This document shows positions 1,310 to 12,599 of a stretch of DNA of 12,599 bases, in pieces; position 1 is the first letter of the stretch, and every line of letters starts with the position of its first letter. Both the position numbers and the translations under genes were made by a program. Under the pieces are notes generated by a model. That model had not been told where the DNA came from. It saw only the letters and a program-made list of their open reading frames with translations, and made no database searches. Origin of the DNA: Deltaproteobacteria bacterium (GTDB lineage: Bacteria; JAUYMQ01); the NCBI GenBank assembly GCA_030698575.1, contig JAUYMQ010000589.1, forward strand, positions 1-12,599, given 5' to 3'.

Positions 1310-1418
1310 GACGTGAAATCTCGAGCACAGTTGGCCGCACGCGCTCCTGTCGTAGGTCAGGGCGTGCTGAGTGGGCATGCTTCGTTCGGATGGCGGATTC
1401 TGGCAGGGATGTCTTACC

Positions 1419-2306
1419 ATGACCAAGCTGTGGCGCATTCACCTTCGCCCATCCTCGGAGACAGGTGTCGATGCGTGTCTATTTTGTACCCGAGAATCCG
1501 TTCTTGGTGTGGGCTGGGCCGTTGGCCAAGGTGAACAGGCGCTTGATTGGCAGACCTACAGCTCGTTGGCTGCGATCAAGCACGCGGGAGATCGCAGTTG
1601 GCGACTTGCGTTAACGCCCCTAAGGACAGGTTTGTCCATAGGAGATCTCTGCTGGTCGCGCGATCAAAAAGGCATCTACTACCTCGGGCAGGTCACGGGT
1701 GACTGGGAATATCGTTCCGGTGAAGCATACCGCCGTGCCGACATAGTAAATGTTCGTCTCTGTAAATGGGTTGAGGTAGGAACGGTTGAAGAAGTTCCCG
1801 GCAAGGTGTTAAGCAGTTTTGTGCCACGGCGAATACTGCAACCCATCAACGACGCGACTGCTCTATTCTACTCAGAAATGGTATTCGGACAGAAGACCGG
1901 TGCCGAAGTCATTAAGTCGCCCGAGAAGAAGGACGTCTTCGCACTTCTGTCTTCAGAAGACTGCGAGGATGTCGTCGGGCTTTATCTCCAAAGTCTAGGC
2001 TATAGCCTCATCCCGAGTTCCTGCAAACGAAGAGACACCCTGGCGTATGAATACGTGTTCAGGCACCGGACCACCGGGCATCGAGCTGTAGCTCAGGTGA
2101 AACGGGGCGCGGATGATCTGGTAATTGATGACCTGTTAGGCGTAGCTGATGACGTGTTCCTATTCACGACGCATGGCAAGTATCTCGGAGCGCCGACTCC
2201 GCGCGTGCATTGTATCGACCGAAGCACGATTGAGGGATTCCTTCGTGCAAACCCGCAGATTCTCACGCAACGAATCAAGACTTGGGTCCAGGCCGCTGGA
2301 TTGTAG
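1419..2306 (+). CDS. PD-(D/E)XK restriction-type endonuclease, possibly modification-dependent
   Basis: A 295-aa protein starting MTKLWRIHLRP at ATG 1419, with AGGGA about ten bases upstream. The frame extends back to 1371, but those residues look non-coding. The N-terminal half contains GVGWAV (about 31-36) and a beta-rich block GIYYLGQVTGDWEYR (85-99) to VPGKVLSSFVPRRILQPI. This resembles small beta-barrel PUA/EVE-like readers seen in modified-DNA restriction enzymes, but I cannot prove that fold. The C-terminal part has an acidic helix (SSEDCEDVVGLYLQSLGY, about 178-195), then D206 and Q226-V-K228 in RAVAQVKRG. This is the Mrr-like order of a PD-(D/E)XK active site with Gln in the usual Glu position. 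Base composition is clearly lower in GC than its neighbours: 1741-1800 has 26 G or C in 60. That suggests separate, recent acquisition. The 3' end overlaps the convergent ATPase gene by 32 nt. Confidence 0.75.
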   Translation: MTKLWRIHLRPSSETGVDACLFCTRESVLGVGWAVGQGEQALDWQTYSSLAAIKHAGDRSWRLALTPLRTGLSIGDLCWSRDQKGIYYLGQVTGDWEYRSGEAYRRADIVNVRLCKWVEVGTVEEVPGKVLSSFVPRRILQPINDATALFYSEMVFGQKTGAEVIKSPEKKDVFALLSSEDCEDVVGLYLQSLGYSLIPSSCKRRDTLAYEYVFRHRTTGHRAVAQVKRGADDLVIDDLLGVADDVFLFTTHGKYLGAPTPRVHCIDRSTIEGFLRANPQILTQRIKTWVQAAGL

Positions 2307-3618
2307 ACTCGGGGCTCAGGCACACCTTCACGAATCCGGCCTGCCGTTTCCCAACGTTCGAGTCAAGGCTCCGGACCTGCTCGTGTTGCCTCATTACGCG
2401 TCTTACTTCCTCTCGGAGGATTCCCACGTAGCGTGCCGGGTCTTCAGCTACACTTACCGCTGCTGCGAAGCACGCTTCACGCAGATGGGCACCTGTGAGC
2501 CCTTCACACTGGAGGCCAATCTCGGTTAGCTCGCCAGCGTACAACGGCCAAGGTGAATAGCGCTGAAGAAGGCCAATTCGCTCAGCTTGTCCGGGCCCTG
2601 GAAACACGAAGACTCGATCAAATCGCCCCGGTCGATCTAGAAGATTAAGCTCGAGTTTCGTGGGATCATTCGACGTCGCAATCCACAGCACCGGCTTGCT
2701 CGGCTGAAACATCCCGTCGAGCACATTCAAAAAAAACTCGGCCGTTACCACGCCAGAGTCCAATAGCCGGTCCACGTCCTCCAGCACGACAATCGCGGGC
2801 GCGTCAGTCGCCTCGATCTCCTGTACCATCGCCCGAAACGGCGACTCCAGCGCGCGCGCCGCCGAGCTGCCTTCCACGAGAAACAGAAAACGCCGGCAGT
2901 CCGGGTAACGATGCAGCAGGTGCCGCACCATCAACGTCTTGCCGGTCCCCGGCGCACCCACAAAAAGAACCCCACGCGTCGGCGCGATTCGCAGCTTGGC
3001 ACACAGCTCGGCACCCCGCCAAAACCGGTCGAGATACGCGAGGAGATCGACCTTGAATTGATCGGGGAGGATCACGTCGGCCTCCGCAACCGGCGTCAAC
3101 CCGGTCGGCTTCGCGTCCGCGCCATACACGACCACTTGCTCCCGAAACAGCTCCGCTCGCTTCGCCTTTAGCAGCGCCGCGAGCCCGAGCGTCGTCGCGA
3201 GCGACGAGCCCGCGAGCAATAAGGCCCGCTCAACCTGCCCCGGAAACACCTGCTCGTTCACGCGCAGGGCGAGGTACTGCTGACCATTTAGTGTCAGCGT
3301 GACCATCCCGTGGAAATCATCGATATGCACACCCTCCTCCACGAGTTCGGGAGCGTGCGCGACGATGGGCTCGGTGCGGCCACCGTTCCGAATCGCCAGG
3401 ATCCAGCCGAAGAACGGAAGGCCAGGCTCCGCTGTACCGCCGATGCTTCGAATGCACGTGATCAGCTCGGCGCCGTTCATCCATCCGCGGATGACCACAG
3501 GTTCTTCGGTCCAGCCAAGAGCCGTCGCGGCGGCACGGAGCGTTTCCACCCAGCGGGGGGCGATATTCGCGTCCCGATACCAGACTCGATGATCCATGAG
3601 GAGTCCATAGAATGCCAC
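2275..3618 (-). CDS. AAA+ family ATPase
   Basis: A 447-aa protein if read from GTG 3618. The in-frame ATG at 3597 (MDHRVWYRD) gives 440 aa, and neither start has a clear ribosome binding site. Residues 1-185 form an N-terminal region I do not recognise. The AAA+ module follows: Walker A GAPGTGKT at 221-228, a Walker B strand IVVLEDVDR at 276-284 with Glu before Asp instead of the usual DE order, sensor-1 Asn in ATSNDPTKL (about 314-322), and the RPGRFD arginine-finger box at 329-334. This is the classic AAA layout of proteases, katanin- or BCS1-like remodelers and many defence ATPases. No protease or membrane domain follows, so it probably acts on a separate partner. The gene lies on the opposite strand to the nuclease and overlaps its 3' end by 32 nt. 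Its upstream DNA contains the tRNA terminator. The last ~30 residues are antisense to the nuclease C-terminus and may be poorly conserved. Confidence 0.9.
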   Translation of the reverse strand: MAFYGLLMDHRVWYRDANIAPRWVETLRAAATALGWTEEPVVIRGWMNGAELITCIRSIGGTAEPGLPFFGWILAIRNGGRTEPIVAHAPELVEEGVHIDDFHGMVTLTLNGQQYLALRVNEQVFPGQVERALLLAGSSLATTLGLAALLKAKRAELFREQVVVYGADAKPTGLTPVAEADVILPDQFKVDLLAYLDRFWRGAELCAKLRIAPTRGVLFVGAPGTGKTLMVRHLLHRYPDCRRFLFLVEGSSAARALESPFRAMVQEIEATDAPAIVVLEDVDRLLDSGVVTAEFFLNVLDGMFQPSKPVLWIATSNDPTKLELNLLDRPGRFDRVFVFPGPGQAERIGLLQRYSPWPLYAGELTEIGLQCEGLTGAHLREACFAAAVSVAEDPARYVGILREEVRRVMRQHEQVRSLDSNVGKRQAGFVKVCLSPESTIQRPGPKS

Positions 3619-3708: not shown

Positions 3709-3788
3709 AAACACGAAAGCCGGAGAGCATTTGCTCCCCGGCTTCCGATCACGTAGCGAAACTGGCTACGCGGAGGTCCCTCACGTAT
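3709..3788. repeat. About 80-bp dispersed two-hairpin repeat, copy 1
   Basis: It matches 8552-8632 in the same orientation with only a handful of differences. Most of these fall between the hairpins and in the last twenty bases. Each copy holds a long GC-rich hairpin (arms 3719-3728 and 3733-3742) followed by a short one, CGTAGC (3752-3757) and GCTACG (3765-3770), around the loop GAAACTG. The 3' part (3768-3783) is also complementary to the anticodon arm of the adjacent tRNA transcript. Confidence 0.8.
3714..3747 (-). terminator. Rho-independent terminator downstream of the tRNA
   Basis: On the minus strand GCCGGGGAGC (3742-3733), loop AAAT and GCTCTCCGGC (3728-3719) form a 10-bp stem with one G-U pair. 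TTTCGTGTTTT follows. It lies about 90 bases after the tRNA 3' end and would stop the tRNA transcript before the AAA+ gene. The near-palindrome could also work, more weakly, on the + strand. Confidence 0.65.
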
Positions 3789-3833
3789 GGAAACATCGGC
3801 TCTTGATTCAGCCGAGTCAATGGGAAGCAGGGG

Positions 3834-3917
3834 TGCTGGTGGTGGGATTCGAACCCACAAGGGCTTTCGCCCAGAGATTTGAGGGACCTCTGCGTTTACC
3901 GATTTCGCCACACCAGC
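3834..3917 (-). tRNA. Class II tRNA with leucine-type body and aberrant CTC anticodon
   Basis: Read on the minus strand: acceptor GCTGGTG (3917-3911) pairs perfectly with CACCAGC (3841-3835), with discriminator A at 3834. The next bases are CCC, so the terminal CCA is not encoded. The D arm GCG-AAATCGGTAAA-CGC is leucine-like. The long variable arm is a GGGC-GAAA-GCCC hairpin, and the T arm is GTGGG-TTCGAAT-CCCAC with a canonical T loop. The anticodon stem GAGGT (3890-3886) and ATCTC (3878-3874) pairs fully with one G-U. The 7-base loop is CCCTCAA (3885-3879), giving anticodon CTC (a glutamate codon reader) with C instead of the near-invariant U33. The reverse complement of the loop, TTGAGGG, is an ordinary Leu(GAG) loop. 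An alternative fold with stem CAGAG/CTCTG has an 11-base loop that includes TCAA, but it breaks the D stem. It may be a functional variant, a tRNA damaged by a local inversion, or a tRNA-like remnant. Confidence 0.8.
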
Positions 3918-4229
3918 ACCTCATGGCTGCGAACCCCGGTAATCCCGAAGGCCAAGACGCGAGACCCCACACGTGCTGCCGCCCGCCCGAGCACGATGCG
4001 AGAACAATGTGAGTGGGAGTGCATCAAACCAACGCTGGAAGAATCACTTCAACGCGAAGATTTATCCGTCGGCTGACGCCGCGGCTCGGCCACTACACTC
4101 GCCCTCAAGGGGCGCGCTCTCGCCGAGCCGGCCCTGCAGCGCACGGGAAGACGCCTTTTCGCCGCCCGTCCGTAGTGCTAGGCTAGAGGAGCCGCACCGG
4201 CTGTCACACCCATCCGCAATGCTTCATCC
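3918..4229. other. Intergenic region between the tRNA and the nuclease operon
   Basis: About 310 bases with no convincing gene. Open frames here on both strands have arginine- and proline-rich, low-complexity products typical of antisense or non-coding GC-rich DNA. The promoter of the minus-strand tRNA should lie just right of 3918 and a + strand operon promoter probably lies near 4150-4225, but I see no clear -35/-10 pair for either. The notable structure is the palindromic element at 4082-4130. Confidence 0.6.
4082..4130. repeat. Nested palindrome of the REP-like family
   Basis: CGGCTCGGC (4082-4090) pairs with GCCGAGCCG (4122-4130), enclosing an inner hairpin CGCCC (4100-4104) and GGGCG (4110-4114). 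The right half contains CGCGCTCTCGCCGAGCC (4113-4129), found exactly again at 9974-9990, and it resembles 3670-3686. This suggests a dispersed extragenic palindrome family in this genome. Confidence 0.6.
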
Positions 4230-5017: not shown

Positions 5018-5050
5018 CAGAGTCACACCCGGGCCTTAGTGTTGGTGCTG

Positions 5051-6148
5051 ATGACCAAGACCGAGCGCTGGCTCAACCTCCTCGCCTTCCTCCTCGACCA
5101 CCGCCGGCCCGTGCCGCGCGAGGAGATCCTGAGCCAGGTCGAAGACTACAAGACCGACTGGATTGAAGGCTCGGAGCGCAGCCGCGAATCGGTGCGCCGC
5201 AAGTTCGAGCGCGACAAGGCCGAGCTCAAAGAACTCGGCGTCGTGATCGAGCCCCTCAAGGAAAAGATCGTCGCGAATCACTCTGATCAGGAAGTCGAAG
5301 CCTATCAACTGAAGCCGCGCGAGTTCTATTTACCATACCTGAAGGTCGTCCCCCCTCTCCGCTCGCGGAGAGGGGGTCAGGGGGTGAGGCCGGAGGCACG
5401 ACCCTACTTCCTGAACGAGGTCGCGCTCGCGAGCGACGAGCTGCCCATCCTCCGCCGCGCCGCCGAGCGCATCGCGGCTCTCACCGAAACGCCCCTCGGC
5501 AGCGCGGCTCGCGCAGTCATCCGCAAGCTTTCCTTCGATCTCCCGGAAGCGAACGTCGGCGCCGAAGAGCGGGCGTTCCCGGCGCCATCGACGGTGGATC
5601 AGCAGTTCGCAATCCTCAGGCAGGCGGTCGAGCAGCGCCGCGCCGTGCAGTGCCGCTACTACACGATCCGCCGCGACTCCGAAGAGAAGCGCGTGATCGA
5701 GCCGTATGGCCTCATGCTCTCATGGGGACACTGGTACTGCGTCGCCCGCGCGCGCGAACGCGACGCGCTCAGGGTCTTTCGGCTCGACCGAATGAAGAAC
5801 TGCGCATTGATCGAAGGCGAGAAGGGGGAGTTCGCGGTCCCCAAGAACTTCAGGATCAGCAGCTACCTGAACCGCGCACCGTGGGAGCTGTCGGACGACA
5901 AGCCGGTCACCGCGCGCGTCCGGATCAACTTCCCCCAGTCCCGCTGGGTCATCGGCGAGCGCCTCGGCAAGGTCGTCAAAGCCGTGACCGACGACGCGGG
6001 CAGCGAGTTCGAATTCGAAGTACGTGCCGTGGATGCTTTCGTGCGCTGGCTCCTGCCGCTCGGCAACCAGGTCGAAGTGCTGTCACCGCCGTCAATCAAG
6101 AACCGACTGGAAGAAGCACGGGCGCAGCTCCGCGCCGTCTATCCCTGA
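5051..6148 (+). CDS. WYL-domain transcriptional regulator (PafC/PafB-like), first of pair
   Basis: A 365-aa protein from ATG 5051 (MTKTERWLNLLAFLL). GTG 5039 is also in frame but less likely. A helix-turn-helix covers residues 1-65 (LNLLAFLLDHRRPVPREEIL, then SRESVRRKFERDKAEL as the recognition segment). The WYL domain covers about 195-255, with RAVQCRYYT, the RVIEPYGLMLSWGHWYCVARA box (W228-Y229-C230) and RVFRLDRM. A WCX-type C-terminal extension follows (280-365). WYL proteins sense nucleic acids or nucleotide ligands and commonly control DNA-repair and phage-defence genes. Residues about 99-118 (PPLRSRRGGQGVRPEARP) are encoded by a palindromic repeat inserted in frame between the HTH and WYL parts, and are not part of the family. 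The stop TGA directly abuts the next ATG, a tandem WYL layout like pafB-pafC. It probably regulates this operon as a heterodimer with its neighbour. Confidence 0.92.
   Translation: MTKTERWLNLLAFLLDHRRPVPREEILSQVEDYKTDWIEGSERSRESVRRKFERDKAELKELGVVIEPLKEKIVANHSDQEVEAYQLKPREFYLPYLKVVPPLRSRRGGQGVRPEARPYFLNEVALASDELPILRRAAERIAALTETPLGSAARAVIRKLSFDLPEANVGAEERAFPAPSTVDQQFAILRQAVEQRRAVQCRYYTIRRDSEEKRVIEPYGLMLSWGHWYCVARARERDALRVFRLDRMKNCALIEGEKGEFAVPKNFRISSYLNRAPWELSDDKPVTARVRINFPQSRWVIGERLGKVVKAVTDDAGSEFEFEVRAVDAFVRWLLPLGNQVEVLSPPSIKNRLEEARAQLRAVYP
5351..5390. repeat. Palindromic repeat inserted in frame in the WYL gene
   Basis: CCCCCTCTCCG (5351-5361) and CGGAGAGGGGG (5366-5376) form a perfect 11-bp palindrome around CTCG. 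GGGGGTGAGG (5380-5389) follows. The same architecture occurs at 10677-10716 and, inverted, at 11848-11889. Here it is read as PPLRSRRGGQGVR without a stop or frameshift. Confidence 0.85.
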
Positions 6149-7084
6149 ATGCCTCAAACCGCCCAGGCCCAAGCGCCGCGCCTGATCGAGCTGATCGCCT
6201 GGCTGTCACAGAGCGACAGCCCGAAAACCATCACGTATAAGGCAGCGGCCAAGCAGCTCGGTGTTTCGGAGAAGATGCTGCGAGAAGACCTCGAGGTGCT
6301 GCTCGAGCTGACGGCCGAGCATAAAGACTGGCTCGCGAGTCTGCGCGTGGCGCTCGTGGCCGAGGAATTCACGGTGCTGAGCCGCGGCGCATTCCTCCGG
6401 CCGATCCACCTCACCGAAGAAGAAGGCCTCGCCCTGCTCCTCGGCCTCACCGGCGTGCGCGGCGGCAGCGCGGTCGCCGCCAAGTTCACGAACCACGGGC
6501 GAGGGAAGCGCTCGCCCGAATCGGTGGAGTCGGCCTTCGCCATCGGCGCCGCGCCGAGCGCCGAGCTCGATGGCCTCTTGGCCGTGGCGCGGCGGGCGCG
6601 CGACGAGAAGCGGAAACTCGAGATTCTCTACTGCGGCTCGGCGGGCGAGCCCTCTCGGCGCACGATTCACGTGCACCAGATCGTGGAGCACGCCGGCCGC
6701 TGGTACGTCATCGCCTGGTGTGAGACCTGCTGCGACATGCGTCACTTCCGCGCCGATCGGCTTCTCGAGGCTCGGCTGCTGGTCCAGGACTTCCGGCCGC
6801 AGGTGCTGTTTCGGCCCATCGGCAATCCACAGGAGCTGCTGCAGACCGACGAGACCGTCACTGCGCAGGTCGCGTTCAGCAAAAAGATCGCGCGCTGGCT
6901 CGAAGAGAAGTACCCGAATGGTCGGACGAGCCCTGATGGGCGGTACGTGGTGAAGTTTCAGGTCGCCGATCCCGCCTGGTTCGTGCGCGAGATCTTGCAG
7001 TACGGCGCGCAGGCTGAGGTATTGTCCCCGGACAGTTTCCGTGAGGCCGTGCGGAAGATGGTCAGCGTTGGTGAGGTGAATTGA
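6149..7084 (+). CDS. WYL-domain transcriptional regulator, second of pair
   Basis: A 311-aa protein starting directly after the stop of the first WYL gene (TGA-ATG). Residues 10-60 form a winged helix-turn-helix: LIELIAWLSQ, then ITYKAAAKQLGVSEKMLREDLEVLLEL. The WYL domain spans about 150-215, with LEILYCGSAGEPSRRTIHVHQIVEHAGRWYVIAWC (box W185-Y186) and FRADRLLEARLL. The C-terminal 90 residues match a WCX-like ligand-binding extension. Length and order are typical of PafC-like proteins. In the first WYL protein the box follows a PYGL element. Here that is replaced by HVHQIVEHAG, so the two are diverged paralogues rather than a fresh duplication. Its TGA overlaps the ATG of the downstream nuclease by one base, which argues for one transcript and coordinated output. 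Confidence 0.92.
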   Translation: MPQTAQAQAPRLIELIAWLSQSDSPKTITYKAAAKQLGVSEKMLREDLEVLLELTAEHKDWLASLRVALVAEEFTVLSRGAFLRPIHLTEEEGLALLLGLTGVRGGSAVAAKFTNHGRGKRSPESVESAFAIGAAPSAELDGLLAVARRARDEKRKLEILYCGSAGEPSRRTIHVHQIVEHAGRWYVIAWCETCCDMRHFRADRLLEARLLVQDFRPQVLFRPIGNPQELLQTDETVTAQVAFSKKIARWLEEKYPNGRTSPDGRYVVKFQVADPAWFVREILQYGAQAEVLSPDSFREAVRKMVSVGEVN

Positions 7085-8544
7085 TGACCCTCCGCCTCTC
7101 GAAATCCAAGTTCGTCGCCGGCACGCAGTGCCACAAGCTGCTCTGGTGGAAAGTCCACGACCCTGATGCTGAAGAGCTGCAACCCGACAAGGTGCTCCAG
7201 GACCGTTTCGATCAGGGAGCCCAGGTCGGCGAGCTCGCGCGTGGCCGCTTCCCTGGTGGAACGTTGATCGATCTGCCGTACTACGCGACTGACGAGCGGA
7301 TCAGACTCACCCAACAAGCCATCAAGGCCGGATCCCCGGCGATCTTCGAGGCGAGTTTTGTCGCCGATAACACCTACGTCGCCGTGGATATTCTCGCCCG
7401 CGAGCACGACGCCTTCCGTCTCATCGAAGTGAAATCGTCCTCGTCGCAGAAAGACGAGCACATCCTCGACGCCGCCGTCCAGGTGCACGTGGTCAAGCAG
7501 AGCGGTATCGACGTGCGTGCCGCGGAGATCATGCACCTCAGCAAGGAGTTCCGGCACCCCGATGAGGGCGACCTGTTCGCGCGTAGCGATGTGACCGAAA
7601 GCGCCTTCGGGCTGCTGCACACCATCCCGGGGGAGATCAAGGCGCAGCTCGCGATGCTCAGCGGGCCGCTCCCCGACGCGCCGATCGGCATGCACTGCCA
7701 CGAGCCGCGGGCCTGCCCGTTCATGGAGCGCTGCTGGCCGCAGTCGCGCGACCACATCATGCGGCTGTACAACGTCGGGCCCAAGCGCGGCTGCGACTAC
7801 ATGACGACCGGCGTCCACACGATTCCCGACATCCCGCCGACGCAGAAGCTGCCCGACGCCGCCAAGCGGCAGATCCGCGCGATGAAAGAGCAGCGGATCA
7901 TCGTCGAGGCCGGTCTCAAGAAAGCGCTGGAGCCGTTCAGCGGCCGCCTCGGCTTCCTCGACTTCGAGACCATCTCGCGCGCGGTCCCGGTCTGGCCGGG
8001 TATGGCCCCCTGGGAGCAGGCCGCGGCGCAATTCAGCTATCACGAAGCCCAGCCCGACGGGTCCTACACCCACGCCGCCTTTCTCGCCGAAGGCTCGCAT
8101 GACGCGCGTCCCGAGCTTGCCAAGGCGATGATCGCAGCCACCGCGGGCGCCGAGCGGGTCGTGACGTACACGGCGTTCGAGAAGACGCGCATCCGGGGGC
8201 TACAGAAGTGCGTGCCAGCGCTCGAGACTGAGCTGAAGCAGCTCGAGGGCAAGCTCATCGACCTGCATCCCATTATGCGGGACTACGTATACCACCCCGA
8301 CTTCCTGGGGAGCTTCAGCCTGAAGTACGTCCTCACGCCGATGGTGCCGGAGCTGACGTACAGCGACCTCGTCATCGTGGACGGCCTGGTCGCGAGCGTC
8401 GAAATCGCCCGGCTGCTGTTCGTGGCTCAGAAGATCTCGCCGGAAGAGAGGGATCGTGTGAGGCAGGATCTGTTGAACTACTGCGAGCGGGATACGTGGG
8501 CGATGGTGAAGCTGTTGGAGCGGCTGCGGGAGTTGGCCAACTAG
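7084..8544 (+). CDS. DUF2779/TM0106-type nuclease: Cas4-like PD-(D/E)XK plus DEDD exonuclease fusion
   Basis: A 486-aa protein from ATG 7084, which overlaps the preceding stop codon by one base. The N-terminal half is a RecB/Cas4-type nuclease: start RLSKSKFVAGTQCHKLLWW, active-site D102 in VAVDILARE and E115-V-K117 in RLIEVKSS. Four cysteines, C16, C205, C211 and C217 (CHEPRACPFMERCW), are spaced as the Fe-S cluster ligands of Cas4/AddB-like enzymes. The C-terminal half is an RNase H-fold 3'-5' exonuclease: D293-F-E295 in GFLDFETISR, a middle Asp in LIDLHPIMRDY (D393) and D470 in NYCERDTWAM. Both active sites look intact. The family is widespread but poorly characterised and is presumed to act in DNA repair or defence. 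Placement after two WYL regulators suggests damage- or phage-inducible expression. A strong terminator begins 12 bases after the stop. Confidence 0.92.
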   Translation: MTLRLSKSKFVAGTQCHKLLWWKVHDPDAEELQPDKVLQDRFDQGAQVGELARGRFPGGTLIDLPYYATDERIRLTQQAIKAGSPAIFEASFVADNTYVAVDILAREHDAFRLIEVKSSSSQKDEHILDAAVQVHVVKQSGIDVRAAEIMHLSKEFRHPDEGDLFARSDVTESAFGLLHTIPGEIKAQLAMLSGPLPDAPIGMHCHEPRACPFMERCWPQSRDHIMRLYNVGPKRGCDYMTTGVHTIPDIPPTQKLPDAAKRQIRAMKEQRIIVEAGLKKALEPFSGRLGFLDFETISRAVPVWPGMAPWEQAAAQFSYHEAQPDGSYTHAAFLAEGSHDARPELAKAMIAATAGAERVVTYTAFEKTRIRGLQKCVPALETELKQLEGKLIDLHPIMRDYVYHPDFLGSFSLKYVLTPMVPELTYSDLVIVDGLVASVEIARLLFVAQKISPEERDRVRQDLLNYCERDTWAMVKLLERLRELAN

Positions 8545-8551
8545 GGTGGGG

Positions 8552-8632
8552 AAACACGAAAGCCGGAGAGCTTTGCTCCCCGGCTTTCGTTTTGGCGTAG
8601 CGAAACTGGCTACGCGGAGACCTGTCAAGTAT
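8552..8632. repeat. About 80-bp dispersed two-hairpin repeat, copy 2
   Basis: Direct copy of 3709-3788. The second hairpin is perfect: GCGTAGC (8595-8601) and GCTACGC (8609-8615) around GAAACTG, as in copy 1. Here the first hairpin serves as terminator of the nuclease operon. The last 20 bases differ from copy 1 exactly where copy 1 resembles the tRNA anticodon arm. Confidence 0.8.
8557..8593 (+). terminator. Rho-independent terminator of the WYL-nuclease operon
   Basis: CGAAAGCCGGAGAGC (8557-8571) and GCTCCCCGGCTTTCG (8575-8589) form a 15-bp stem with one A-C mismatch and a TTT loop, followed by TTTT (8590-8593). It starts 12 bases after the nuclease stop codon. Confidence 0.8.
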
Positions 8633-8686
8633 CGTCGCGGACTGGACCCTATCGGACGACGGCGGGAGCTATATCGTCAAGCTGCG

Positions 8687-10005: not shown

Positions 10006-11916
10006 CTAGTGCGTCACCACCCGATCGGGCTCGGAGGCAGCGCACGTGACGCAACGGCCGGACTCCGGCACGAAATGCTGAGCACAGGCGGTCTTGCCGC
10101 ACACGGAACAGGCGCTCACCTCGTCCGCTGCGAAGACCGCCTCCGGCTCTGCCACGCACGTCGCGCGGTGTTGTTCGCAGACCAGGCGGCCCGAACCGTC
10201 GGCCCGGCGCAAATGCCTGGAGCACTGAATCTGTTCGTCCACGGCGCACACGGCCTGGTGCGCGGTGCAGACCGATCGGCCGCAGCTCGCGCACTCCACC
10301 ACCTCGTCCACGCCCACGGGCTCGTTGGTGCCCCCTTCGCAATAGCGCAGACACGCCGAGCACAATCGTCGGCTCCCCTTGGGCGCGTCGGCCTTGCTCC
10401 GCTCCGCATGACGGTTGCAGACGATCCGGCCGCAACTGCCGCACGCTTCGAGACACGCGGTACACGCCGGATGCTCGCCCTCCCCGTCCGCGCAGACGCC
10501 TTCGTGCGCCGTGCAGTGCGCCATGCGGCACGACGAGCACACGCGCGCGTGCTGCTCGCAGGCGGGCTGATCGTCCACGCGGCAGTAGGCGATACCGTGA
10601 TCGGCGCAGAAGTCCGAGGCGCACACCGAGCAGCGGGCGGAGCACGCGTCACAGACGCAATGTCCGTCCCTTCGTTCCCCCTCTCCCGAAGGGAGAGGGG
10701 GAGAGGGGGTGAGGACGCAGACCACCAGCTCGGCCGGCGAACGGCCGCACTTCGGGCATGCGAGAATCCACGCCGCCGATCCAGCGATCGGCCGCTGCGC
10801 CGCAAACCGGGCGCGAAGCCCTCGCTTCGAGCGGATTTCCCACTCGACACGCTGCATCAGGACCTGCGCCTGGACGATCTGGAGCGGATGCACGATCGCC
10901 ATCACCTGATGGCGACGCATCTCCTCCGCCCGCCGCCGCTCGTGCAACGCGGTGATGGTGCGCACGTCGTCGGGATCGGTCTTGTCCGCCAGGACTGACG
11001 CGAAGTAGCGATCGAGCCGCTCCAGCTCCACGGCGACTCCCTGCTCCGCGCCCACCTGCCGCGCGGCCACCCGCTCGGCGCTCTGTTCTCGCAGATCGCT
11101 GAGCAGCAGCTGGAGCATTTCCGCGGGTGGGCGCGCGGGAACCGCAACGGCATCGGGAACGTCATCCGAATCGGCCGGCTTGCTGCGCCGCGCCTCCAGA
11201 TCTGCGAACTGCGCGGTCACCTGGTCGTCCGCGCGGGCGCCGGTGGCGAGATCGATGACGGCGCTCTCGATCACGGTTTCCTCGACCACCGCGCCGGCGC
11301 GCAGCACGACGCGCGCGAGCAGCCGCCCCACCGTATGCGTCGCCAGTTGGGATTTGCGGCGCCGGACAGTGGCGTCGCGGACGGGGACGGGCAGGTCGAG
11401 ATCGTGCGTCGTGCGTCGTACGTCGTGCGTGGTGCTCTTGGCTGACCCCCGGCGCCTGGCTGCCTTGGCTGACTTGGCTGACCCCGGGCGCAAGCCCGGG
11501 GTTTTCGGGAGGGTGATCATGCCGAGTGACAGCCGGCCCGCCCGGGTGCGGATGGCCTCGAGCAGGTGCCCTAGGAACGGGCTGCCGAGCACCGCCATTT
11601 CGGCGTCGGGATCGCGCTCCAGGGCCTCGAGCGACAGGGCCACGCGCACCGTCGCGCGCCCCGAGAAGTGCGCGCGCTCTGAGAGCGGCAGCTTCATGTC
11701 GTACAGATCGGCGCCGCGCGGCATCAGCTTCACTTTGGCGAGCTTGCAGTACCGCTCCAACAGCGGCCAGATACGCGCGTCGGTCTTCACCTCCTGGACG
11801 GTTTTGCGCGCCCGTTTGGTCCTCACCCCCTGACCCGCTCGGCCTTGGGTCCTCACCCCCTTTCCCCCTCTCCCTCCGGGAGAGGGGGGACGATGGACCT
11901 TGCGTCGGGCCGTCAC
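10006..11916 (-). CDS. Large cysteine-rich, probably zinc-binding partner of the SNF2 helicase
   Basis: A 636-aa protein starting at GTG 11916, whose GTGA overlaps the helicase stop; no earlier start is plausible. Residues 1-36 are largely encoded by a palindromic repeat. Residues 40-380 are a soluble alpha/beta and helical region with no family I recognise, including SLEALERDPDAEMAVLGSPFLGHLLEA (about 95-121) and a long charged helical stretch 262-370. From 387 the protein is a string of CxxC and CxxH units: CPKC at 387, CDAC, CSVC, CADH, CSSC, CTAH, CTAC, CGSC, CNRH, CSAC, CASC, CTAH, CEQH, CSVC, CAQH and CVTC. This gives about forty Cys/His ligands in tandem treble-clef or B-box-like folds. 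Residues 400-420 come from a second in-frame repeat and about 138-176 from a low-complexity insert. Stop/start coupling to a SNF2 helicase suggests a nucleic-acid-binding adaptor. Function is otherwise unknown. Confidence 0.8.
   Translation of the reverse strand: MTARRKVHRPPSPGGRGGKGVRTQGRAGQGVRTKRARKTVQEVKTDARIWPLLERYCKLAKVKLMPRGADLYDMKLPLSERAHFSGRATVRVALSLEALERDPDAEMAVLGSPFLGHLLEAIRTRAGRLSLGMITLPKTPGLRPGSAKSAKAARRRGSAKSTTHDVRRTTHDLDLPVPVRDATVRRRKSQLATHTVGRLLARVVLRAGAVVEETVIESAVIDLATGARADDQVTAQFADLEARRSKPADSDDVPDAVAVPARPPAEMLQLLLSDLREQSAERVAARQVGAEQGVAVELERLDRYFASVLADKTDPDDVRTITALHERRRAEEMRRHQVMAIVHPLQIVQAQVLMQRVEWEIRSKRGLRARFAAQRPIAGSAAWILACPKCGRSPAELVVCVLTPSPPLPSGEGERRDGHCVCDACSARCSVCASDFCADHGIAYCRVDDQPACEQHARVCSSCRMAHCTAHEGVCADGEGEHPACTACLEACGSCGRIVCNRHAERSKADAPKGSRRLCSACLRYCEGGTNEPVGVDEVVECASCGRSVCTAHQAVCAVDEQIQCSRHLRRADGSGRLVCEQHRATCVAEPEAVFAADEVSACSVCGKTACAQHFVPESGRCVTCAASEPDRVVTH
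10677..10716. repeat. Palindromic repeat inserted in frame in the cysteine-rich gene, central copy
   Basis: CCCCCTCTCCC (10677-10687) and GGGAGAGGGGG (10691-10701) form a perfect 11-bp stem around GAA, with GAGGGGGTGAGGAC following. On the coding (minus) strand it reads VLTPSPPLPSGEGER, placed between two cysteine motifs without breaking the frame. Confidence 0.85.
11400..11505. repeat. Low-complexity and palindromic insert within the cysteine-rich gene
   Basis: It has two parts. Tandem CGTCGTGC-like units (about 11403-11430) are read on the minus strand as STTHDVRRTTHDLD. TTGGCTGAC units follow (from about 11438), ending in the perfect hairpin ACCCCGGGC (11481-11489), GCAA, GCCCGGGGT (11494-11502) and a T run. 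It encodes the Lys/Arg/Ser-rich stretch at residues 138-176, which separates otherwise ordinary protein sequence. Confidence 0.6.
11818..11889. repeat. Palindromic repeat at the 5' end of the cysteine-rich gene, with partial tandem copy
   Basis: Inverted relative to the copies at 5351 and 10677: GGGTCCTCACCCCCT (11847-11861), then CCCCCTCTCCC (11864-11874) and GGGAGAGGGGG (11878-11888). A truncated second copy of the tail, GGTCCTCACCCCCT, starts at 11818, about 30 bases before. Read on the minus strand they give RPPSPGGRGGKGVRTQ and GQGVRTKR just after the start codon. Confidence 0.85.
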
Positions 11917-12599
11917 GCGGACTCCACGGAGATGTCGACCAGTGCCAGCGGGAGGCGCTCGACCTGCGCGACGAGCGTGATCGCGCGGCCCGCGCTGGTC
12001 AAACCGGTGAGCCGCACGAGGGCGCCGTATTCGGAATGACTGCCCGCGGAGGGGGGCTGCGTGGTGGTGACGCCGCCGATAGGCTCGATCGATTCGAGCG
12101 CTTCGAGCAGCTCGGTGACCGTGATGCGGACGCGCTGCCGCTTGGCCTCCCATCCCGCGGCCTTCACGACGTGGCTCGTGCCCAGACCGAGCCGCAGCCG
12201 CGCGGGAACAGAGAGCGTATCGAACCGCCGCTCGAGCCGTGTGGCGTTGTCGTCCGGCGCGATCGCCGAGTTCAGCTGCTCCTGTTCCCGGCCGGCCGCA
12301 CTGCTCCGCTCGAGATCGAGGCCCAACGTTTCCACGCGGCGCTCGAAGTCTTCGTCGTTCTCCGCCGCCAGCCACTCGTCCGCGAGCCGCACCTCGAACT
12401 TCTGCGCGCCGCCGAACTCGCCCAGGATCATGTCCAGCTCGCCCACGACCAGCTCGAACAGTTTGATCTTCTTGTCGAGCAATTGGAGGATGTACGACTC
12501 GATGGTGCCGGCCGCGGCCAGGTTCACGATGTGGACCTCGCGCTTTTGCCCGATGCGGTGCACCCTCCCGATGCGCTGCTCGATCACCATCGGATTCCA
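11913..12599 (-). CDS. SNF2-family helicase, C-terminal part (truncated by window edge)
   Basis: The frame is open at the right edge of the window, so only the last 228 residues are visible. It opens with WNPMVIEQRIGRVHRIGQKREV, helicase motif VI of the SNF2/RapA group (QRxGRxHRIGQ), followed by the usual IVNLAAAGTIESYILQLLDKKIKLFELVVGELD post-motif helix. The last ~160 residues are a family-specific C-terminal domain with EVRLADEWLAAENDEDFERRVETL, then a beta-rich end (RVRITVTELLEALESI, VRLTGLTSAGRAITL). Such helicases remodel duplex DNA or protein-DNA complexes and recur in DISARM-like and other defence islands. The stop codon overlaps the GTG start of the cysteine-rich gene, so the two form one transcript. 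Class cannot be settled without the ATPase motifs outside the window. Confidence 0.9.
   Translation of the reverse strand, partial: WNPMVIEQRIGRVHRIGQKREVHIVNLAAAGTIESYILQLLDKKIKLFELVVGELDMILGEFGGAQKFEVRLADEWLAAENDEDFERRVETLGLDLERSSAAGREQEQLNSAIAPDDNATRLERRFDTLSVPARLRLGLGTSHVVKAAGWEAKRQRVRITVTELLEALESIEPIGGVTTTQPPSAGSHSEYGALVRLTGLTSAGRAITLVAQVERLPLALVDISVESA

Follow-up and report, generated by a model that had tools for sequence, protein, structure and literature searches.

Type VIII toxin-antitoxin systems are loosely defined by the pairing of an RNA toxin with an RNA antitoxin (PMC10767807). The members of CreTA pairs can share one strand within 200 bp (PMC10767807), and the CreT toxin acts on translation by sequestering tRNAs (PMC8501985). 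The natural mistranslators of the tRNA-ProX group have been reported to be toxic to E. coli (PMC10365949), and LeuRS depends little on the anticodon (PMC11415595). Here we describe a module in which a Leu-bodied tRNA with a non-Leu anticodon is followed by what appears to be a gene for an RNA antisense to its anticodon arm. To our knowledge, no tRNA has its own dedicated antisense RNA. The literature that we searched, with subscription papers mostly outside its coverage, likewise yielded no tRNA-antisense module.

The window, which is the whole stretch of 12,599 nucleotides that was analysed, carries the tRNA gene on its minus strand (Table 1). The gene reads GCTGGTG TG GCG AAATCGGTAAA CGC A GAGGT CCCTCAA ATCTC T in its 5' part and continues as GGGC GAAA GCCC TT GTGGG TTCGAAT CCCAC CACCAGC A, with no encoded CCA end (the final A is followed by CCCC). 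A first-pass annotation of this DNA had described a class II, Leu-like tRNA with a CTC anticodon, no U33 and a single G-U pair in the anticodon stem, and we confirm all of these features; the loop is C32 C33 C34 U35 C36 A37 A38. The mismatch between isotype and anticodon that had been noticed also stands. The molecule scored 55.9 bits against the Rfam tRNA model (RF00005; gathering score 29, E 4.7e-10) and was labelled 'tRNA-Glu ctc' by ARAGORN, while the tRNAs of its own genome nearest to its body are Leu tRNAs (75% identity to Leu-CAA). It has the class II form, the A73 and the Leu-like D-arm and variable arm of a tRNA-Leu body, but its anticodon is neither NAG nor YAA. It is therefore Leu-bodied and is not a member of ordinary tRNA-Leu.

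The home genome (4.13 Mb in 653 contigs), in which a protein neighbouring the window tRNA is closest to those of soil Gemmatimonadetes MAGs, encodes all five ordinary Leu tRNAs (TAG, TAA, GAG, CAA and CAG), including the ordinary Leu(GAG) tRNA that the earlier annotation had suggested looking for. Since it also has an ordinary Glu-CTC tRNA (L032), decoding does not depend on the odd tRNA of the window. Elsewhere in the same genome (G000:C176:8067-8150) lies another Leu-bodied tRNA of this odd kind, with loop CCCACAA and anticodon CAC.

On the same strand, 50-100 nt downstream of the window tRNA, lies an antisense copy of its anticodon arm with what appear to be its own promoter and terminator. 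The first-pass annotation had not picked up this copy, which is the most important feature of the locus. The RNA encoded there resembles the 5' half of the tRNA in inverted form. The stem of the terminator contains G-U pairs on the minus strand where the plus strand would have A-C, which indicates that the minus strand is the one transcribed; a plus-strand tRNA-like gene considered at 3753-3792 was dropped because these G-U pairs occur on the minus strand only.

Table 1. Features of the tRNA-antisense module and related elements in the window (positions count from the first letter of the window; promoter, terminator and pairing assignments are predictions).
Feature	Positions	Strand	Remarks
Leu-bodied class II tRNA	3834..3917	minus	anticodon CTC (34-36 at 3883-3881), C33, A37, A73
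Anticodon arm of the tRNA, GAGGT-CCCTCAA-ATCTC	3874..3890	minus	putative target of the antisense RNA
Leader GGU, -3..-1 of the tRNA	3918..3920	minus	complementary to A73-C-C (3834-3832)
-35 box TTGACT, antisense-RNA promoter	3815..3820	minus	
-10 box GATGTT, antisense-RNA promoter	3792..3797	minus	17-bp spacer
Antisense segment TGAGGGACCTCCGCG	3769..3783	minus	pairs with 3' side of tRNA D-stem and with anticodon arm
Antisense-RNA hairpin GCGTAGCCAGTTTCGCTACGT	3751..3771	minus	resembles reverse complement of tRNA D-arm
Terminator hairpin GGAAGCCGGGGAGC-AAAT-GCTCTCCGGCTTTCG	3714..3746	minus	
Degenerate second anti-arm TGTGGGGTCTC, upstream of the tRNA	3961..3971	minus	fits CAC arm better than CTC arm
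Orphan antisense-RNA remnant (anti-arm for GTC loop plus hairpin)	8595..8632	minus	no tRNA beside it

The first relative found was a class II 'Glu CTC' tRNA with U33 that lies near a DUF2779 gene (L051/L069, isolate AG20), and a search of eleven relatives with a D-arm and loop pattern added three further odd tRNAs, with anticodon CGC. A covariance model (R1) was built from six modules and searched over 395 Gemmatimonadota genomes. Full-length matches scored 92-184 bits and ordinary Leu tRNAs scored up to about 95 bits; once the sequences had been read, 43 intact modules were kept from 24 Gemmatimonadota genomes, with up to 6 in a single genome. This count is a lower bound, given that 20 lower-scoring matches comprised 18 ordinary Leu tRNAs and two diverged modules. 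L171 and L183 are additional, more diverged modules that carry perfect antisense segments. When the module model was run over 386 genomes, the best eight matches outside the phylum proved on reading to be ordinary Leu tRNAs, and a pattern combining a Leu body with C36A37 matched the home genome alone among 366 genomes. A phage or plasmid origin was dropped, as no module match was found in phage and plasmid records or, with one exact pattern, in IMG/VR.

In all 43 modules the nearest tRNA body is Leu rather than Ser or Tyr, A73 and A37 are invariant, and position 33 is always a pyrimidine. The anticodons are CGC (19 modules), CAC (9), CTC (3), GAC (3), GGC, GTC and GGT (2 each), and TTC, CGG and GAT (once each); a Leu anticodon occurs in none of the 43. 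The corresponding codons rank 1, 2, 4, 5, 9, 10, 11, 13, 16 and 25 in usage in the carrier genomes, which suggests that the odd tRNAs would mostly decode codons among the most used. Modelled pairs of the cloverleaf and the antisense hairpin are 97.6% paired, a figure favoured by the fitting of the alignment to the structure; 23 of the 34 pairs show double changes, and none of 500 shuffles matched. These patterns point to odd tRNAs that are kept functional throughout the family.

The same relatives bear on how the window loop arose. The first-pass annotation had proposed that a single Leu(GAG) tRNA had its loop flipped by template switching, on the grounds that CCCTCAA and TTGAGGG are reverse complements of each other and that the arms are self-complementary. 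The chance of such an origin is now practically nil. The 43 homologues carry ten non-Leu anticodons and none has a TTGAGGG loop, an identical CCCTCAA loop is present in another genome (L109, G299), and close relatives combine U33 with the CTC anticodon (CTCTCAC in L069). Relatives sharing the CCCTCAA loop, with no TTGAGGG homologue, are what the annotation itself had named as evidence against a flip, and the likeness to a Leu(GAG) loop reflects only the reverse complementarity of CTC and GAG. Two other suggestions have likewise been overtaken: the cloverleaf has been maintained through compensatory change, which is at odds with a dead gene, and the independent genomes exclude an assembly error.

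The modules share the architecture of the window. Each tRNA is followed downstream, on the same strand, by a sigma-70-like promoter, then by an antisense copy of its own anticodon arm and a hairpin; a terminator-like hairpin closes the unit in 40 of 43 modules. Of the 43 modules, 27 have a TTGAC motif 30-36 nt ahead of the antisense start (shuffles: mean 1.6, maximum 5), and 33 have TANNNT within the 14 nt that precede it (shuffles: 4.9, maximum 12). Consequently, the antisense unit looks like a gene. The promoter of the tRNA is less clear: a scan upstream with the sigma-70 consensus scored no better than shuffled sequence. At about -105 upstream of the tRNAs there is a recurring motif like GATGACG/GGTTACC, with weak TANNNT boxes near -73; together they perhaps form a promoter that another sigma factor recognises.

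Further evidence comes from the joint variation of the two genes. Pairing between an anticodon arm and its own antisense segment scored 32.3 on average, against 15.8 (sd 3.9) for swapped pairs, and 0 of 10,000 permutations reached the observed sum over own pairs (44 tRNAs, with one exceptional module included). Since model R1 contains no pairing between arm and antisense, this test is not circular. Positions 28-38 of the tRNA pair with the antisense almost everywhere, and positions 34, 35 and 37 are Watson-Crick paired in all 43 modules. The pairs covary, with three pair types at position 34, three at 35 and four at positions 30-31. Predicted duplex energies average -27.0 kcal/mol for own pairs and -11.2 for swapped ones. 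For the window pair, cofolding predicts -93.4 kcal/mol, compared with -34.1 and -44.2 for the RNAs apart, in a structure with the D and anticodon arms opened. The exceptional module (L145, G274:C110:2020-2184) is the sole out-of-step pair among the modules read: its Leu-bodied tRNA has a Gly anticodon (GCC), but its antisense RNA fits a GTC loop. Overall, selection on tRNA-antisense pairing at the anticodon arm is strongly supported by these comparisons.

It is important to ask whether this signal could belong to DNA rather than RNA. In every copy, inverted repeats 11-24 nt long are separated by about 100 nt, and the copies occupy scattered, unrelated genomic places, as would suit an attachment site, an invertible segment or a hairpin transposon end beside which the tRNA is incidental. 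A DNA repeat should accumulate G-U and A-C mismatches in about equal numbers, but among the transition-type mismatches at positions 28-38 there are 23 G-U and 2 A-C (p = 1e-5), an asymmetry that argues for selection on RNA:RNA pairing and not on a DNA palindrome. Furthermore, a promoter with the correct spacing starts at the repeat, a terminator closes the unit, and none of the neighbouring protein families is conserved, so that a DNA-level element is very improbable. The direct repeats at 3753 and 8597 were also considered as an attachment site or as invertible DNA, a view rejected because of the G-U bias and the placement of promoter and terminator. In the aligned modules, the conservation of the tRNA and its antisense partner, their architecture and their co-evolution at the RNA level are thus evident.

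We propose, with a probability of roughly 0.6, that the module is an RNA-only toxin-antitoxin system of type VIII-like form, or a regulated-mistranslation switch, composed of a Leu-bodied tRNA with a wrong anticodon and a dedicated antisense RNA. The tRNA would be expected to be charged with leucine, because LeuRS largely ignores the anticodon, and would place Leu at frequent non-Leu codons: GAG in the window, and GCG, GTG, GAC, GCC and others in relatives. The resulting Leu-for-Glu, Leu-for-Ala, Leu-for-Val or Leu-for-Asp errors would harm the cell. The second RNA, a short transcript from the sigma-70-like promoter just downstream, would carry at its 5' end the antisense of its own tRNA's anticodon arm, and in its 3' part the D-arm antisense hairpin and the terminator. 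By binding the tRNA it would open the D and anticodon arms and keep the tRNA off the ribosome. The narrower proposal of an addiction module, with a mistranslating tRNA as toxin, an anticodon-arm antisense as antidote and a codon target diversified by paired changes, we hold at about even odds. We infer that both RNAs are expressed, that the tRNA is charged with Leu, mistranslates and is toxic, and that the antisense RNA neutralises it. The earlier idea of a mischarging tRNA, or of a tRNA in another role, survives, with charging presumed.

Remnants provide indirect support for the direction of this relationship. In one locus (L159, G046) the 3' half of the tRNA has been lost and in another (L107:3538-3684) the 5' half, and both keep the antisense promoter and hairpin. 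In the window itself, the orphan antisense-RNA remnant is followed by a terminator hairpin (region 8557-8640, minus strand) between the DUF2779 gene and a metallo-beta-lactamase gene; its anti-arm matches a GTC-type loop, so that another module may formerly have occupied this place. In a non-exhaustive look through the modules read, no intact odd tRNA was seen without an antisense gene. Broken tRNAs beside kept antisense genes suggest that the tRNA is the toxic partner and the antisense RNA the neutralising one. The decay cases are few in number, and at L140:49-200 the tRNA is broken and the antisense part is missing as well; both points count against the toxin-antitoxin reading, as do the mismatched L145 and the unclear tRNA promoter. 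About half of the tRNAs also have a weaker second anti-arm some 50 nt upstream (own 15.4 versus 12.7), which may represent an earlier copy or belong to the leader. The upstream anti-arm of L107 fits CGC, and its present tRNA has anticodon TTC; there and in the window it is as if this segment recorded an earlier anticodon.

Some features of the tRNA itself fit a translating toxin less well. C33 replaces U33 in 13 of 43 modules, so that weaker decoding is expected, which also counts against the toxin reading. CCA is encoded in none of the 43, whereas the ordinary Leu tRNAs of the home genome do encode it, and in most family members the leader GGU can pair with A73CC, with one compensatory change (GCU/AGC); the leader was not seen at ordinary Leu tRNAs. 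Processing of the 5' and 3' ends may consequently be unusual. The same features would suit a non-translational riboregulator, a tRNA-like RNA that acts as a sponge, sensor or decoy, with anticodon nucleases or the antisense RNA among its possible partners, and the defence-like genes of the window would suit it too. Yet cloverleaf, A73 and A37 are retained throughout the family, and anticodons that avoid Leu and match frequent codons are hard to explain without decoding. The defence-like neighbours are not conserved, and the first-pass annotation's idea of a decoy or sensor tRNA belonging to a defence region thus gains no specific support; we regard the riboregulator as doubtful.

A physiological alternative is the main rival to the toxin-antitoxin reading. 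The odd tRNA could be a useful stress mistranslator whose dose is set by the antisense RNA, with no addiction or killing. The molecular evidence of pairing, covariation, structure, promoter and terminator applies to such a dosage switch in the same way, and bacterial mistranslating tRNAs with conditional benefit exist in nature, a role proposed for Streptomyces tRNA-ProX (PMC10365949). However, anticodons differ among the copies of one genome (CGC, CAC and GGT in G283), and the copies lie at unrelated locations and decay. All this is easier to reconcile with a selfish or addictive module than with a single fixed physiological programme. Among the genes adjoining the modules, none stood out as a dedicated synthetase. 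Adaptive mistranslation is therefore unlikely in our judgement, if less so than the riboregulator, and the toxin-antitoxin reading is retained.

No conserved protein partner was found among the 44 loci, where the commonest neighbour cluster, which contains Ser/Thr kinases, occurs at 8. The window copy sits among WYL regulators, a DUF2779 protein, an AAA ATPase and a candidate defence protein. An association with DUF2779/WYL genes was considered and rejected, as DUF2779 is nearby at three loci and absent from most modules. The candidate defence protein (1371-2306, plus strand) matches the PADLOC candidate family PDC-S02 (E 2e-93) and is flanked by a Pua-like domain protein (32-1309) and the AAA ATPase (2275-3618, minus strand). 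Two tandem WYL/WCX regulators (PafBC-like) and then the DUF2779 protein, with weak Cas4-like similarity, occupy 5039-8544 (plus strand). At 11913-12590 (minus strand) the C-terminal part of a SNF2-type helicase, DrmD/BrxH-like, is cut by the window end, and a DISARM- or BREX-like locus beyond that end is possible.

If the proposal is correct, a tRNA is used as a poison, and cells or selfish elements have an easily retargeted attack on any codon, a form of 'deliberate mistranslation' switchable through base pairing. A class of tRNA genes to which annotation pipelines wrongly assign Glu, Ala or Val identity would be accounted for as well. The module further suggests a programmable means of turning off single tRNAs. 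The module itself, for which a toxin-antitoxin role is proposed, belongs to a type of system of which our literature searches turned up no description.

Comparison with described systems makes the differences explicit. The odd tRNAs resemble Streptomyces tRNA-ProX (tRNA-ProA/N/T with ProRSx) in that body and anticodon disagree and one family holds several anticodons (PMC10365949). The tRNA-ProX genes, however, have a Pro body, belong to Actinobacteria and usually adjoin the variant synthetase ProRSx, whereas here the body is Leu and no neighbour is conserved at the 44 loci; the commentary on tRNA-ProX mentions no antisense RNA (PMC10365949), and the present module has a co-evolving one. Candida tRNA-Ser(CAG) and other chimeras of identity and anticodon offer a parallel in programmed ambiguous decoding, but that is a eukaryotic single-gene case for which the accessible part of the source mentions no antisense partner (PMC11415595). 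Type I toxin-antitoxin systems likewise rely on an antisense RNA transcribed from a promoter of its own; they have a protein toxin, with the antitoxin located opposite the toxin mRNA, whereas no toxin ORF is involved here. In form the module agrees with type VIII, given two paired RNA genes with a putative antitoxin RNA, as judged from the predicted promoter, antisense segment, terminator and covariation. CreTA differs in that CreA acts via CRISPR Cascade on the creT promoter, while the guide-like segment of the present module targets a tRNA arm and not a promoter, with no conserved protein neighbour, and SdsR-RyeA differs in consisting of overlapping antisense transcripts. In neither CreTA nor SdsR-RyeA is the toxin a tRNA or the antisense directed at an anticodon; in the module described here a tRNA is the putative toxin, and an inverted copy of its D and anticodon arms lies downstream on the same strand.
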